Assembly: GCF_002028405.1 (NCBI RefSeq)
Contig: NZ_CP020046.1
Location: 2,046,001-2,110,000 of the forward strand
Reading direction: 5' to 3'
DNA length: 64,000 nt
From: Thiomonas intermedia
GTDB lineage: Bacteria > Pseudomonadota > Gammaproteobacteria > Burkholderiales > Burkholderiaceae_C
This document shows, piece after piece, positions 14,096 to 21,857 of this stretch. Within the stretch, counting starts at the first letter, position 1, and each line of letters begins with the position of its first letter. The notes under the pieces were generated by a model that worked only from the letters and a program-made list of their open reading frames with translations, was not told the DNA's origin and ran no database searches. The position numbers were made by a program, and so were the translations under genes.

Positions 14096-14517
14096 GGTCA
14101 GCGACCGCTCCGTGAGATCGGCGTCATTTTTGTCGCCCAAAAACCAGCGCCGCAGGAAATGATCAGAACGGCATCAGACTATCAGAAATTTCTGACAGGG
14201 AAATCATCCTTTTCCGACGCGGTAATGGGGGGCGTGCTGATCGATTCGGACCCGGACAAATTCGACAATTCAGCCCATCGAATGCGACATTTGCCGATGA
14301 TTTCCTACGGGAATCGACGGCATCGAGATGAGGACGTTCGAGGGCAGAGGGCTGAACGAAGGAAGTCGGCCAGTCTCGATGTAACAAGACGTCCATTATT
14401 TATCCATATATTGCGGGCGAGTTCAGTGAAAAAAATGACGCTGAAGGCGTTCGGGGTTGTCCAGCGACATGCTGACTGCAAGTGTCGGTGTCGTTGGGTC
14501 CATGTGAGGGAGTTGTC
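14096..14517. other. AT-richer divergent intergenic region
   Basis: A 422-bp gap between the divergently transcribed kinase gene and the lipoprotein gene, clearly poorer in G+C than its surroundings (for example AAATTTCTGACAGGGAAATC near 14186). A 120-codon open frame reading right across it lacks a ribosome-binding site, codon bias and any recognisable motif, so it is not called. The region must hold both promoters, but no convincing -35/-10 pair or operator was resolved. Confidence 0.5.
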
Positions 14518-16161
14518 ATGAACGTTTCATTTCTCAAAGCGATGGTGGCCGCGGCCTGCGCCTCTGCTGTGCTGGCCGCTTGTGGAGGCGGTGGCGGCGG
14601 TGCAGAGCTGGCCGCCAATACTGCGGCCGCCCCGGGAACCGCGGCAATCGCCAGCCCGCAGCCGGTGGTGACTGGCGGAGCCACTTCTTCGAATCAAAGC
14701 TCGACGACTCCGACGACTCCGACGACTCCGACGACGCCCACGACGCCCACGACGCCCACGACGCCCACGACGCCCACGACTCCCACGACTCCCACGACGC
14801 CCACGACGCCACCTGTCGCGACCACCTGCGGCACCGCCTCCTCGAATCCTGCGTCGGGTCTGGTGGACTACGGCAAGGCCCTGCGGCCGTACACGGCGCT
14901 GGCCAAGCCCGCCAAGGGCGTGAGCGTGGCCGACCCTGATTTTCCCGGCAACACCCGCATCGTGCGCGTGACCGACGTGGCGTCTGATTTCAAGGCCGGC
15001 GTGGCCGTGCCCGTGTACCCCACCATCCAGTCCTGGAACTGCGACGAATCCCTGCTCTTTCTCTACATCACCTCGCCGCAGTCGGGCGGGCAGAGCGGGC
15101 ATGCCCTGTTTGACGGCAAGACCTACAAATTCATCAAATTCATCGACATCAACCCCGCCGACGTCGAGCAGGTCTACTGGGATCCCGTGAATCCCGCGCT
15201 GCTGCGCTACGTGGACAACCGCGAGAGTGGCGGCACCTACCTGCGCGAGCTCGTCGCCTACAACGTCAACACCGGACAGAAGACCGTGCTCAAGAGCTTC
15301 ACCGGCAACGCCGCGCTGACCCCCACCAGCGGCAAGATCGGCGGCGGCGGCGACCCCTTCGCCGCCAGTGCCGACGGCGACCTGTTCGGCTTCGGCGTGT
15401 ATCAAGAGAAGAACGGTCCCGGCGGCGCGGCCCTCCAAGGCCAGTTCAGCTATCGCCTGAGCACCAACAAGATCTCCACCTACGGCACCCACGAAGGCAA
15501 TGTCGCCCAGGCCCTGCCCAGCGGACGCGGCCTCATGCTGGGCGACGACACCAAGGTGAGCGTGCTCAGCGAGGCCGGTGCCGTGCAGCGCCAGATCGCC
15601 TTTGGCGGCACCGAGCACGGCGACCTGCTGCAGAACGCCGCGGGCAACGACGTCTTCGTGGCCGTGCAGTTCGACGGTCCGGCGGGCAGCGGCAACCTGA
15701 TGGCGGCCAACCTCACCACCGGCGTGGTCAGCACCATCATTGGCGAATCCACTGGCGACGGCTACCCGCGCACGGGCGGGTTGCTGTCCGGGCGCAGCCG
15801 CGCGCCGGGCTGGGTGGCGCTGGCCATCACCGGCTGTCCGGCAGGCAGCACGGGCAACTGCAACGGCTACCAGCCCACCGTCTCCGGCGCGGCCCAGACC
15901 TACCTGGACCAGGAGATCGTGCTGGCCAATATCGACACGGGCAAGGTCTACCGCGTGGCCCATCACCGCAGCACGGGCAACTACAGCAACGCCAAGACCA
16001 GCAACTACTGGGCCCAGCCCAATCTGGTGATCAGCCCCAGCGGCACCCGCATCCTGGTGGCCAGCGACTGGGGCGATGCCAACCCCAACAGCCCGGTGAT
16101 CAACCCCAGCGCCGCCGTCGATACCTACGTCATCGAACTGCCCGCCTATCGGGGTCAGTGA
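14518..16161 (+). CDS. Putative lipoprotein with Thr-Thr-Pro linker and beta-propeller-like body
   Basis: A 547-residue exported protein. The N-terminus MNVSFLKAMVAAACASAVLAACGGG carries a lipobox (LAAC), so it should be lipidated. About residues 62-98 are a rigid TTP repeat, a likely cell-wall or periplasm-spanning stalk. The remaining ~450 residues contain repeated Gly/Asp-rich beta-strand segments (for example FPGNTRIVRVTDV, GGTYLRELVAYNV and the closing RILVASDWGD) typical of propeller folds such as TolB-like or WD-like proteins. No catalytic motif is recognisable. It stands alone between divergent and convergent neighbours. Confidence 0.7.
   Translation: MNVSFLKAMVAAACASAVLAACGGGGGGAELAANTAAAPGTAAIASPQPVVTGGATSSNQSSTTPTTPTTPTTPTTPTTPTTPTTPTTPTTPTTPTTPPVATTCGTASSNPASGLVDYGKALRPYTALAKPAKGVSVADPDFPGNTRIVRVTDVASDFKAGVAVPVYPTIQSWNCDESLLFLYITSPQSGGQSGHALFDGKTYKFIKFIDINPADVEQVYWDPVNPALLRYVDNRESGGTYLRELVAYNVNTGQKTVLKSFTGNAALTPTSGKIGGGGDPFAASADGDLFGFGVYQEKNGPGGAALQGQFSYRLSTNKISTYGTHEGNVAQALPSGRGLMLGDDTKVSVLSEAGAVQRQIAFGGTEHGDLLQNAAGNDVFVAVQFDGPAGSGNLMAANLTTGVVSTIIGESTGDGYPRTGGLLSGRSRAPGWVALAITGCPAGSTGNCNGYQPTVSGAAQTYLDQEIVLANIDTGKVYRVAHHRSTGNYSNAKTSNYWAQPNLVISPSGTRILVASDWGDANPNSPVINPSAAVDTYVIELPAYRGQ
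14701..14812 (+). repeat. 9-bp in-frame tandem repeat encoding Thr-Thr-Pro
   Basis: About twelve copies of a 9-bp unit, ACGACTCCG or ACGACGCCC, run in frame through the lipoprotein gene. Two subtypes are arranged in blocks: three or four of the first, then five or more of the second, then a mixed end. This is the pattern left by slipped-strand expansion, so the number of TTP units probably differs between strains without breaking the frame. Confidence 0.9.
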
Positions 16162-16822: not shown

Positions 16823-18042
16823 GATTGCCCCCAGGTCTGCGCTTCGCCCAGACCGCCCCCCGAGGGGGGCAAGAAAACTTGGGGCGGCCCGGCGTTTTCT
16901 TGCGCTTCAAGCTCCTGTGCGATGCGGTCGAACCAGGCGCGCACGACGCCGTGGTAATGCGGGTGGTCCATGAGGAAGGCGTCGTGGCCTTGCGGGGCAT
17001 CGACTTCGGCATAGGTCACGGCGCGGCGGTTGGTTACCAGCGCCTGCACGATTTCGCGAGAGCGTTGCGGCGAGAAGCGCCAGTCGGTCGTGAAGCTCAC
17101 CAGCAGGAATCGCGCCCGCGCAGCGGCAAGGCCTTGGGCCAGATCGCCGCCGCTGGCGCGCGCCGGGTCGAAGTAGTCGAGCGCCCGGGTGATGAGCAAG
17201 TAGGCGTTGGCGTCGAAATAGCCGCTGAATTTATCGCCCTGATAGCGCAGATAACTTTCGATTTCGAAGTCCACGCCAAAGCCGTAGCCCAACACCCCGT
17301 TGCGCAGCGCGCGGCCGAATTTGGCCCCCATGGCGTCGTCGCTGAGGTAGGTGATGTGTCCGATCATGCGTGCCACCGCCAGGCCCTGCTTGGGCACGAC
17401 CCCGTGGGCGTAGAAGTCGCCGCCGTGAAAGTCGGGGTCGGTGATGATGGCGCGGCGCGCCACCTCGTTGAAGGCGATGTTCTGCGCCGACAGGCTGGGC
17501 GCGGTGGCGATCGCCGCGCAGTGGGCCACGCGCTCGGGATGGCGCAGCGTCCAGCTCAGCGCCTGCATGCCGCCCAGGCTGCCGCCGATCACGGCGGCCA
17601 GACGGGCAATGCCCAGGCGGTCGAGCAGCCGCGCCTGCGCATCCACCCAGTCTTCGACGGTGACGACGGGGAAGCGGCTGCCCCAGGGCTGGCCCGTCGC
17701 GGGGTCGAGGCTCATGGGCCCTGTCGAGCCGAAACACGAGCCCGGATTGTTCACGCACAGCACGAAGAAGCGGCGGGTGTCGAGCGGCTTGCCGGGGCCG
17801 ATCAGGTTGTCCCACCAGCCCACGCTCTTGGGGTCGCCCGCATGCGTGCCGGCGGCGTGATGGCTGGCGTTGAGCGCATGGCAGACCAGTACGGCGTTGC
17901 TGCGCTCGGCATTGAGCGTGCCGTAGGTTTCAAACATCAACTCGTAAGGCGGCAACTGCGCGCCGCTTTGAAGCGGTAGCGGCTGCTCGAACGCCATGCG
18001 CTGCGGCGTGACGTCACCGAGGGCGGAGGGCGAAGCACTCAT
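16819..18042 (-). CDS. metX: Homoserine O-acyltransferase MetX
   Basis: Alpha/beta-hydrolase-fold enzyme of 407 residues that acylates homoserine in the first committed step of methionine synthesis. The nucleophile serine lies in [14 protein letters not shown], the acid in [10 protein letters not shown] and the histidine in [19 protein letters not shown] and NASHHAAG are also family segments. The last ~28 residues (from about QENAGPP) look unlike the family because the DNA there is an extragenic palindrome. The ATG at 18042 has AGGA 8 nt upstream. Confidence 0.95.
16855..16903. repeat. Extragenic-type palindromes embedded in the metX 3' end
   Basis: Two perfect inverted repeats lie side by side inside coding sequence: GCCCCCC/GGGGGGC (16855-16861, 16864-16870) and GCAAGAAAAC/GTTTTCTTGC (16869-16878, 16894-16903). 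Elements of this CCCCCTCGGGGGG type are normally found between genes in Burkholderiales. Here the metX frame runs through, giving the unusual tail [19 protein letters not shown]. Confidence 0.75.
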
Positions 18043-18053
18043 GGGTGTTCCTG

Positions 18054-18099
18054 CAAAAACAAAACCGGCGGCGCTGGCAATGCAGCGAAAACCGCCGGT
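18054..18099 (-). terminator. Intrinsic terminator in the metX leader (riboswitch expression platform)
   Basis: Read on the minus strand: ACCGGCGG, then CGCTG, a 6-nt loop, CAGCG, CCGCCGGT, followed immediately by TTTGTTTTT. The T-tract ends only about 12 nt before the metX ATG, and the ribosome-binding AGGA follows it. A terminator so placed must act as an attenuator of metX rather than end an upstream gene. The inner CGCTG could instead pair with CAGCG at 18106-18110 in the riboswitch. Confidence 0.8.
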
Positions 18100-18107
18100 G
18101 GTCTGCG

Positions 18108-18161
18108 CTGTTTTAGCGGTATTTATTACGCGCCCGCAAGCCCAGGGCAAATCGGCGCTGC
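18108..18161 (-). ncRNA. SAM-II-like riboswitch upstream of metX
   Basis: On the minus strand the leader contains GCGCCGATTTG, then GGGCTTGC, then GGGCGCGTAATAAAT, then CGCTAAAA, in the order and spacing of the SAM-II (SAM_alpha) aptamer. The P1 arms GCGCC and GGCGC pair. The segment GCCCTG can pair with CAGCGC beyond GCTAAA as the pseudoknot, with one mismatch. SAM-II elements are known upstream of metA/metX-type genes and repress on S-adenosylmethionine binding. A TATACT hexamer about 10 nt upstream could be the -10. A covariance-model search would settle the family. Confidence 0.78.
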
Positions 18162-18280
18162 GGCAAGTATAGGTTCAACGTCGGCGCGGCTGTAGGCCGT
18201 CGCATGCTTGCCGATCACAGCCGCTTTCGTGGCGTAAGGCACAAAGGGCTGTGAATGGTCCTGCGATATATTTATTGAAA

Positions 18281-18366
18281 TACAATGAAAATCCGAAATG
18301 AGAAGGGCATCGAATGCTTTGACAGGGCGATCATCCTCGGGGTGGGCCCAGCGTCCCATCTCGCTT
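18281..18366 (+). promoter_or_regulatory. modA promoter and structured leader RNA (candidate riboswitch)
   Basis: A -10-like TACAAT at 18281-18286 overlaps an AT-rich CGATATAT...AATACA stretch (from 18264) loosely like a ModE operator. The RNA that follows can fold into a three-way junction. Its P1 is GAGAAGGG with CCCATCTC (18300-18307, 18355-18362, one A-A mismatch). The second arm is TCGAA-TGC-TTTGA (18310-18322). The third arm is GGGC-GAT-CATCC-TCG-GGGTG-G-GCCC (18325-18349). An intrinsic terminator follows directly. The element is not recognised as a named riboswitch; molybdate, tungstate or molybdenum cofactor are the obvious candidate ligands. Confidence 0.5.
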
Positions 18367-18402
18367 GACGGCCCCACGGGCTTACTGTGGGGCCGTCTTT
18401 TT
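18367..18402 (+). terminator. Strong intrinsic terminator in the modA leader
   Basis: A perfect 11-bp stem GACGGCCCCAC / GTGGGGCCGTC with a 9-nt loop is followed by TTTTTCC. It ends about 36 nt before the modA ATG, with no gene upstream on this strand, so it must attenuate modA or end a small RNA. The GGGGTGGGCC segment in the preceding leader could pair with GGCCCCAC of the terminator and act as antiterminator (inference). Confidence 0.85.
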
Positions 18403-18437
18403 CCTCTTCGTGTAACCCAAACTGACGGAGTGTTCTG

Positions 18438-19199
18438 ATGAAACCATTCACGACGATGTTGCGCCGCGCGGTGCTCGTGCTCGGCCTGCCTTTCGTGCTG
18501 ACGGCCACGGCGCAGGCTCAGGCCATCACGGTGGCGGTTGCCGCCAATTTCAAGAAACCGGCCGAGGAAATCGGAGCGGCCTTCAAGGCGACATCCGGCG
18601 TCGAGGTGAAGTACGCCTTCGGTGCCACGGGCCAGTTTGCGGCGCAGATCCGCAATGGCGCGCCGTTCGACATTCTGCTGGCCGCCGACGACACCACGGC
18701 GCCCAAACTGGCGCGAGATGGCTACGCGGTGGCGGCGAGCAACTTCATCTATGCCCGCGGTACGCTGGTGCTCTACAGCACCACCTTGCCGGTCAAGGAT
18801 CAGGGAGAGGCAATTCTGCGCAAGCGCGACTTCGCGCATCTGGCCATTGCCAATCCCAGGACGGCGCCCTACGGCACCGCCGCCGTCGAGGCGCTGAACA
18901 AGATGGGGCTTTACGACGGCCTCAAACCCAGAATCGTCGAGGGCTCCAACATCGGACAGACCTTCGACTTCGTCGCCACCGGCAATGCGCAACTGGGCTT
19001 CGTCGCCCTGTCGCAGGCCCTAGGTTCGGGCCAGGGCGAGTGGTGGACGGTGCCGCAGGCCGACTATGGCGCCATCGACCAGAGCGCCATCGTGCTCAAG
19101 CCGGGGGTAGGCAAGGCCGAGGCCAAGGCCTATCTCGCGTTTTTGCGCGGCCCCAAGGCGCGCGAGGTCATCGAGAAATACGGCTATACCATGCCCTGA
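18438..19199 (+). CDS. modA: Molybdate-binding periplasmic protein ModA
   Basis: A 253-residue periplasmic binding protein with a signal peptide (ATAQAQA cleavage). The mature N-terminus ITVAVAANFKKPAEEI, GATGQFAAQIRNGAPFDILLAADD and NPRTAPYGTAA are ModA segments that contain the oxyanion-binding Ser/Ala/Tyr positions. It delivers molybdate (or tungstate) to ModBC. The gap to modB is 28 nt. Expression is probably limited by the terminator just upstream. Confidence 0.94.
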   Translation: MKPFTTMLRRAVLVLGLPFVLTATAQAQAITVAVAANFKKPAEEIGAAFKATSGVEVKYAFGATGQFAAQIRNGAPFDILLAADDTTAPKLARDGYAVAASNFIYARGTLVLYSTTLPVKDQGEAILRKRDFAHLAIANPRTAPYGTAAVEALNKMGLYDGLKPRIVEGSNIGQTFDFVATGNAQLGFVALSQALGSGQGEWWTVPQADYGAIDQSAIVLKPGVGKAEAKAYLAFLRGPKAREVIEKYGYTMP

Positions 19200-19227: not shown

Positions 19228-19920
19228 ATGACCCTGTTCGGCCACGCCCTCGATCTCGGCCCGCTGTGGCTGACCCTGCAGGTGGCGGGCATCGCCACGG
19301 CGGTGCTGCTGGTTCCCGGACTGGCCATCGCCTGGTGGCTGGCGCACTGGCGCTCGCCACTGCGCGCGGTGGTGGAGGCCGTGGTGGCGATTCCGCTGGT
19401 GCTGCCTCCGGTGGTGCTCGGCTTCTACCTGCTGGTGTTTCTCAATCCGCAAGGGGTGGTCACCCAGTTCCTGCACCATCTGGGCTACGAGGGGCAGCTC
19501 ACCTTCAACAAGATCGGCCTCGTCATCGGCTCGGTGGTGTACTCGCTGCCCTTCATGGTGCAACCCTTGCTGCGCGCGTTCGAGAGCCTGCCGCGCAACC
19601 TGCTCGATGCGGCGGCCACGCTGCGCGCAGGCTGGTGGGATCGCTTCTTTCACGTGGCGCTGCCGCTGTCGCGCGGCGGGCTGATCGTGGCGCTCACGCT
19701 GACCTTCGCGCATACCGTGGGCGAGTTCGGCGTGGTGCTGATGCTGGGGGGCAATATCCCGGGCAAGACGCGGGTGGTGTCCATCGACATCTACAACCAT
19801 GTCGAGGCGATGGACTATGCCCAGGCTCACATCCTCTCCGGCTTGATGCTGGTGTTCGCCGTGGTGGTGCTCACCATCGTTTACGGCCTGTACCGGCGCG
19901 GAGAATCGGAGCCGATATGA
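19228..19920 (+). CDS. modB: Molybdate ABC transporter permease ModB
   Basis: A 230-residue inner-membrane permease with about five helices. The cytoplasmic coupling loop LLDAAATLRAGWWDRFF is the EAA motif, and GEFGVVLMLGGNIPGKT is a ModB signature. It forms the homodimeric channel of ModABC. Its stop overlaps the modC start (ATGA at 19917-19920). Confidence 0.94.
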   Translation: MTLFGHALDLGPLWLTLQVAGIATAVLLVPGLAIAWWLAHWRSPLRAVVEAVVAIPLVLPPVVLGFYLLVFLNPQGVVTQFLHHLGYEGQLTFNKIGLVIGSVVYSLPFMVQPLLRAFESLPRNLLDAAATLRAGWWDRFFHVALPLSRGGLIVALTLTFAHTVGEFGVVLMLGGNIPGKTRVVSIDIYNHVEAMDYAQAHILSGLMLVFAVVVLTIVYGLYRRGESEPI

Positions 19921-21008: not shown

Positions 21009-21074
21009 GGCACGTTGCCGCCAAGCGAAACCCGGCGCCGCCAAACCACCACGCAACCGATCGAAAGGCCCGTC

Positions 21075-21857
21075 ATGCCCGTGAACCGCCGTCATGCTCT
21101 CATCGTTCCCCTGGCTTTGTGCCTCGGGCCCGTTGCCTTCGTACGCGCCGCGGAACCGGCGGCAGCCTTACTGCTCGTGGCGGGTGCGGGTTACCGTCGC
21201 CCGGTCGAGGCGCTGTGCGCCGAATTCACCCGGCAGACCGGCATCGCGGTCGAGCGCAGCTACGGCAATCTGCAGCAGATCGCTGCCCAGGCGAGCGCCG
21301 GCGGACGGGTGGATGTGCTGATCGGCGATGCCGGCTTTATCGACCAGACCCGCGATTTTCATGGGCCGCAGCGCGTGCCGCTGGGTCAGGGCAAGCTGGT
21401 GCTGGCCTGGCGGCGCAAGCTGCTGGGGCGGCGCAGTCCCCGCCCGATCACCGATCCGGTACGCGATCTTGCGGCCATGCAGTCCATCACGCTGCCGAAC
21501 CCGCAGCACGCGGTCTACGGCCGCGCCGCCGGGCAATGGCTCAGGGCCAAGGGCTTGTGGGGCCCGCTGTACGACCGGCTCAAGTTCGTGCAGACCGTGT
21601 CGCAGGTCAGCGCCTATCTCACCTCGGGCCAGATTGACGCCGGATTTCTCAATCTCACCGAACTGCTGGCGGTCAAGGGGCAGCTTGGCGGCTATGTCGA
21701 GCTGCAGCCGGGGGACGACAGCTATGCGCCCATCGACATCGTCGCCGCGTTTGCCGCCGCCGACACCCGGCCGGATGCCGCGGCAGACCGGGCCCGGTTC
21801 GCGCAGTTTCTGCAAGGGGCGCCAGCGCGGGAGATTCTGCGCAAAGCGGGGCTTTGA
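21075..21857 (+). CDS. Second ModA-like substrate-binding protein
   Basis: A 260-residue exported protein with a signal peptide ending near FVRAAEP. The body follows the ModA plan: LLVAGAGYRRPVEALC, SYGNLQQIAAQASAGGRVDVLIGDAGF, NPQHAVYGRAAG and a C-terminal FLQGAPAREILRKAGL. It is only distantly similar to the ModA encoded at 18438. The 66-nt gap after modC and the same strand suggest co-transcription. It may bind a different oxyanion (tungstate or a sulfur anion) and share ModBC; this is inference. Confidence 0.8.
   Translation: MPVNRRHALIVPLALCLGPVAFVRAAEPAAALLLVAGAGYRRPVEALCAEFTRQTGIAVERSYGNLQQIAAQASAGGRVDVLIGDAGFIDQTRDFHGPQRVPLGQGKLVLAWRRKLLGRRSPRPITDPVRDLAAMQSITLPNPQHAVYGRAAGQWLRAKGLWGPLYDRLKFVQTVSQVSAYLTSGQIDAGFLNLTELLAVKGQLGGYVELQPGDDSYAPIDIVAAFAAADTRPDAAADRARFAQFLQGAPAREILRKAGL

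Follow-up and report, generated by a model that had tools for sequence, protein, structure and literature searches.

The window analysed here, a stretch of 64,000 nucleotides from Thiomonas intermedia, includes an interval (18281-18402) between metX (minus strand, start at 18042) and modA, a gene for a molybdate-binding protein (plus strand, 18438-19199) that starts 35 nt past the end of the interval. The modA frame is open and has matches in 11 of the 13 genomes of the genus; its name is taken from the features of its family. It is followed by an open frame at 19228-19920 (plus strand) that is conserved beside modA in relatives, and which we take to be modB. A second ModA-like frame (21015-21857, plus strand; 31% identity to the first) was identified downstream of a modC-like frame. 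Tandem ModA-like genes were found behind mop, a gene described below, in loci L014, L016, L018 and L074 of G002, G010, G011 and G003, respectively.

The surroundings of the interval contain several other elements. Between the terminator described below and modA, positions 18411-18431 hold a GTAACCAAACC-like stretch and then GACGGAG, and this region is conserved in most of the genus. The GTAACCAAACC-like stretch is conserved even though several of the modA proteins are 35-45% identical; G003 and G004 differ there. On the minus strand, upstream of metX, there is a SAM-II (SAM_alpha) riboswitch-like match (18092-18168; 28.9 bits, E 1.2e-4, gathering score 36). A match of 29.8 bits occurs at the same place in G004 (L081), and none was listed to E 0.01 in L071. 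The match is followed, at about 18050-18100 on the same strand, by an inverted repeat that resembles a terminator and has a T-rich tail; it was recognized by eye and is not listed by the terminator scan. Elsewhere in the window, a plus-strand frame (14482-16161) encodes a long Pro-Thr-Thr repeat tract near the N terminus.

We identified an intrinsic terminator at 18367-18402 (plus strand), with a 13-bp stem (18367-18379 paired with 18385-18397), a 5-nt loop and T5. It ranks first in a terminator scan of positions 17900-18700, in which three sites were found against 0.8 expected (sd 1.0). The minimum free energy is -29.4 kcal/mol (z -7.54), and none of 200 shuffled sequences is equally stable. 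The preliminary description had placed an 11-bp terminator with T5 before modA; the terminator is indeed perfect and has T5, with a stem of 13 bp rather than 11. A terminator folds in the mop-modA gap of all 11 loci compared and has a good T run in ten of them (the one in G004 lacks a clean T run). The letters of the stem vary among relatives with pairing kept, and there are two-sided changes in three of seven aligned pairs. When the covariation of two helices was tested jointly, the score was reached by 1 of 500 shuffles, the count of two-sided pairs by 8 and that of further pair types by 196; the row for G003 is misaligned at the terminator in this test, and this sequence folds well alone. 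The G+C-rich stem, the T run and the pairing kept in relatives are those of an intrinsic terminator or attenuator. The terminator in the modA leader is real and, as it is located inside that leader, the earlier terms "attenuator" and "terminated short RNA" are fair.

Upstream of the terminator, the interval contains the remains of a gene. A query covering 18260-18440 found matches in 8 of the 12 other genomes of the genus and no match among 87 genomes drawn from other genera. One of the eight, G008, matches over the full query at 99%. In the other seven (G002, G005, G006, G007, G009, G010 and G011) the principal match starts at 18331, and G007 also matches the palindrome region described below. 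In all seven, the TCATCCTCGGGGTGGACTAA match is the end of a 140-codon mop gene. The proteins of relatives have two similar halves, presumably of the molybdate-binding (TOBE) type, and end in VILGVD before the stop. G003 and G004 also carry mop before modA; their intergenic letters have changed, and they were missed by the DNA search. Overall, a mop match is present in 9 of the 13 Thiomonas genomes and is directly upstream of modA in every one of the nine (the G004 copy has an internal N gap). The genome of the window (G000) and G008 have modA with no mop match, and G001 and G012 (88% and 83% complete) have matches to neither gene.

What is left of mop in the window is a stub of the 3' end (18331-18345, plus strand) that is letter-identical in 11 of 11 aligned loci and is the coding end of mop in nine. 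The TCATCCTCGGGGTGG block that had been singled out earlier is this end of mop. At 18348-18350 the window reads CCA where relatives have a TAA stop (used by seven of the nine intact mop genes), so that in both the window and G008 the stop codon is gone and the gene is cut to a stub. Special codon conservation of the mop end was considered and rejected, as its last six codons are in 7th place among 135 windows in eight genes. The stretch between the palindrome and the stub (18288-18330, plus strand), with a counterpart detected in G008 only, is the probable join of a deletion. G004 has the order metX, AT-rich palindrome, mop and modA, as in the window, and its region upstream of metX is 91% identical to that of the window over 130 positions. 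Thus, the window resembles the G004 arrangement minus mop, from just behind the palindrome to the last codons. We infer from these comparisons that mop was deleted in the lineage of the window and G008. This lineage has the stub alone in place of a mop gene upstream of modA. The genome of the window retains two TOBE matches, the modC-like frame and another open frame of 374 residues, and neither of these is Mop.

In the wider family, the Mop alignment matched at 53 places in 47 of 150 genomes. Of the 52 matches outside the genus, 29 were examined and two have a modA match within 600 nt downstream; no strong terminator was seen by eye in these two mop-modA gaps, although in one of them (L188) a T-rich stretch is preceded by a short, weak hairpin. 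Within this sample, the mop-terminator-modA arrangement appears to belong to this genus.

Upstream of the stub we identified a ModE-type operator-like palindrome (18262-18289, plus strand) with the core CGATATATT-TATTGA-AATACAATG at 18264-18287. A matrix derived from relatives gives it 36.5, compared with 10.8 for the second-best site of the window that does not overlap it. This matrix is rough; each of nine relatives contributed the box with the highest score upstream of its mop gene, and in four of these (G005, G006, G009 and G011) the box chosen was a second one closer to the gene. The palindrome matches the Escherichia coli consensus at only 13 of 22 positions, which is equalled by one unrelated site in the window (13616). 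Thus, it qualifies as a ModE-type operator upstream of the operon by the matrix of the relatives and weakly by the E. coli consensus. In relatives the palindrome is upstream of mop, and in the window it precedes the mop stub. The leaders of mop in relatives (e.g., L070 and L075, upstream of 4001) extend about 180-200 nt from palindrome to mop, with a shorter distance in G004, and several contain a motif like TTTTTGTAAGATGG as well as a second ModE-like box closer to mop. A possible regulator in the genome of the window is a 136-residue open frame with a ModE match of 81.6 bits (cut-off 98.5), which is consistent with a ModE that lacks the molybdate-binding half. ModE matches of at least 81 bits, all below the model cut-off, occur in 12 of the 13 genomes of the genus, and G008 (84% complete) has weak ones only.

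A possible -10 element, TATATT (18267-18272), overlaps the palindrome. In eight of nine relatives, a TTGAC -35 was recognized by eye 17-18 bases before a TATATT-like -10; it is absent in the window and in G004. The promoter scan identified no sigma-70-type promoter in 17900-18700. Given this empty scan and the absence of the TTGAC -35, the transcription start proposed below for the window is putative.

In the comparison of the window with G008, 1 of 140 sites of the reduced leader differs. At the fourfold sites of metX and modA that lie within 400 nt, the count is 14 of 155 (Fisher p 0.0009). This contrast argues for constraint on the leader after the loss of mop. The constraint is not specific, because positions 18043-18262, which cover the SAM-II-like region and stretches without a known element, are equally conserved (1 of 220 sites differs). 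Only 3 of 395 sites differ across the whole metX-modA gap, and the fourfold sites of modB also differ little (4 of 152). A locally low rate could be the cause of the low divergence. Such a rate, together with the missing -35 and the empty promoter scan, would suit a leader that is a non-functional leftover, with stub and terminator persisting by chance and modABC poorly transcribed or started elsewhere. However, the leader is less diverged than nearby fourfold sites, the perfect terminator has been kept and the modA frame is intact, and we regard a non-functional leftover as quite unlikely.

The only difference between the two leaders, at 18368, bears on control by translation. The window has a 27-codon frame that starts near the expected 5' end of the RNA (18285), passes the site of the lost mop stop and reaches its own stop codon (18366-18368) at the foot of the terminator. 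A ribosome on this frame would block the stem and permit read-through. However, the change in G008 removes the stop codon, so that the frame traverses the terminator there, and no ribosome-binding site is apparent by eye. Because G008 lacks the stop, coupling of the terminator to translation is hard to credit.

The preliminary description proposed that the interval folds as a closed three-way junction that may respond to an oxyanion or a cofactor. This junction can be drawn (18300-18303 with 18359-18362, 18304-18310 with 18314-18320, and 18325-18350), with -48.6 kcal/mol for the whole RNA. The optimum (-52.8 kcal/mol) is more stable by 4.2 kcal/mol and forms an irregular single stem. No excess structure was detected outside the terminator: the 86 nt on its 5' side fold like shuffled sequences (-23.4, with a mean of -23.7 for the shuffles; z 0.09; 105 of 200 equally stable). 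Thus, the z of -3.2 for the whole interval 18281-18402 stems from the terminator. For the 5' half of the junction, a counterpart was detected in the near-identical G008 alone, and this half is most likely the join left by the deletion. Nine relatives have the other half as the 3' end of their mop gene. The check suggested with the proposal was covariation of the three stems in relatives. It gave no support, since mop-bearing relatives have no detected homologues of the required 5' strands and the two-sided changes among the leader stems are confined to the terminator.

It had also been proposed that a block inside the junction could pair with the terminator arm. Pairing of GGGGTGGGCC can be drawn in the window (-12.8), and this part of the claim holds; a conserved switch does not follow, since the pairing varies among loci. 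The same test of the block against the terminator arm in ten other loci gave -9.6 to -19.2 with varying pairing, and in nine of the ten the block opposite the arm is the end of a coding sequence. G002 (-16.2) and G010 (-19.2) pair the two more strongly than the window does, so energy alone does not speak against such a switch. The pairing is that of a G-rich block with C-rich arms. As it differs from locus to locus, we rejected it as a conserved switch.

Comparison with Rfam yielded no family at gathering score in the window or in the loci of seven relatives. MOCO_RNA is absent from the match lists to E = 10 for 18000-18500 of the window and for ten short stretches from relatives. Thus, as had been suspected, the element is not the known molybdenum-cofactor motif (Moco RNA motif, RF01055), whose covariance model finds no match here. 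The low-scoring matches in the ten short stretches are mutually discordant and were taken as chance; the best is BjrC68 in L162 (E 0.0095; 21.9 bits, where the gathering score is 39). No literature on this modA leader was found by title or abstract start. A leader RNA that binds an oxyanion or cofactor, and toggles between the terminator and an alternative pairing, would account for a terminator directly before modA and for a G-rich block able to pair with its arm. However, a new riboswitch class calls for a structured aptamer with covariation, and here the sequence outside the terminator folds as expected by chance, one half of the supposed aptamer has no detected homologues, the other is coding in relatives, and Rfam gives no match at gathering score. 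Such ligand sensing is very unlikely.

A further feature is a 15-nt block, CGTCCCATCTCGCTT (18352-18366, plus strand), of which 9 of the 13 genomes of the genus carry an exact copy. Pairing of this block with the end of mop, across the stop codon, is possible (18338-18346 with 18355-18363). We do not claim this hairpin as an evolved element, because equal stability is reached by 188-352 of 2000 shuffles (9-18%) in 10 of 11 loci and by 28 of 2000 (1.4%) in G003, and none of its pairs has changed on both sides. In G004 the same mop end still forms a hairpin, of 10 bp, with a different 3' arm; this is no more than suggestive. In a search of 399 genomes of the family with up to one mismatch, the 15-mer is exact in the genus only and once elsewhere (G434); outside the genus there are also matches that differ at one position. 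An exact 16-mer occurs in four stretches of viral contigs, none with a match to modA, modB, metX or metW.

The block could be the seed of a small RNA that has the terminator as its tail and is released from the 3' end of the mop mRNA in relatives and from its own promoter in the window. This would explain why the block is conserved, including its exact retention in nine genomes while the terminator stem varies. The terminator and a possible nearby promoter would yield a discrete RNA, and the leader is conserved after mop loss. However, the 15-nt block can be hidden in a hairpin, and a target search also counts against this reading. The 11-mer complement of the block occurs at 28 places in the 13 genomes, nine of which are the element itself. 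The other 19 copies (one exact search, 13 genomes) include groups of three, two and two related loci, and none of them lies at a start codon that different species have in common; one copy, in G011 (L143), resembles a start site. We consider a small RNA unlikely. The fuller version, in which block and terminator form a molybdate-controlled small-RNA module from the mop 3' end that became free-standing before modABC after mop loss, is a little more doubtful still. If true, one deletion turned a protein-coding gene into a small-RNA gene.

We conclude that the modA leader was probably made by deletion, and that it combines a putative ModE-type promoter with the terminator inherited from between mop and modABC, which would act as a constant, partial attenuator. 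The ancestor would have had a ModE-type operator and promoter, mop, an intergenic terminator and modABC, in this order. The lineage of the window and G008 would have lost mop save for its last codons, which would leave the operator about 40 nt upstream of the former mop 3' end and its terminator. With molybdate, the short ModE protein would repress transcription at 18262-18289. At low molybdate, transcription would start near 18280 and mostly stop at 18402 to give an RNA of about 120 nt, and a roughly constant fraction would read through into modABC. The terminator would then be a fixed brake inherited from the mop-modABC operon, in which it would hold expression of the transporter below that of the molybdate-binding protein. 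The gene order in relatives, the mop stub, the operator-like site and the terminator are observed; onto these the proposed attenuator would place a start site, repression, a certain amount of read-through and an absence of regulated read-through. A constant attenuator does not explain the conservation of the 15-nt block.

A candidate riboswitch is thereby taken off the list. The case illustrates a general trap, as a coding remnant and a terminator in a leader can mimic a structured RNA when one sequence alone is read. For Thiomonas, the analysis documents both the mop-terminator-modABC arrangement and the reduced form left when mop was lost. The reduced form is a natural experiment in how an inherited terminator sets the level of a transporter. 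Because the logic of the operon resembles that of known ones and Moco RNA was not found, we classify the leader as belonging to a known kind of operon in reduced form and not as a new RNA class.

The Moco RNA motif may lie upstream of modABC, as this leader does, but it has a P1-P5 multistem architecture with a GNRA tetraloop and receptor (PMC2408646), an architecture that was not detected here. In Rhodobacter capsulatus, mopA-modABC is one operon with molybdate-dependent repression through a Mo-box, and MopA is itself a ModE-like regulator (PMC6925177). The Thiomonas operon is similar in having a gene with molybdate-binding domains upstream of modABC. Unlike MopA, the Thiomonas Mop has 140 residues and two TOBE-like repeats with no DNA-binding part, and the window has lost even mop; a terminator between mopA and modA goes unmentioned in the available portion of the R. 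capsulatus account. Some species have a separate single-domain ModE that consists of the DNA-binding part only, and their predicted sites differ from the E. coli type (PMC545781, which also quotes the E. coli ModE consensus used for scoring). The Thiomonas system resembles these regulons in that it has a candidate ModE, apparently made of the DNA-binding part only, and operator-like palindromes upstream of mod genes; unlike in those species, the Thiomonas site is closer to the E. coli type.
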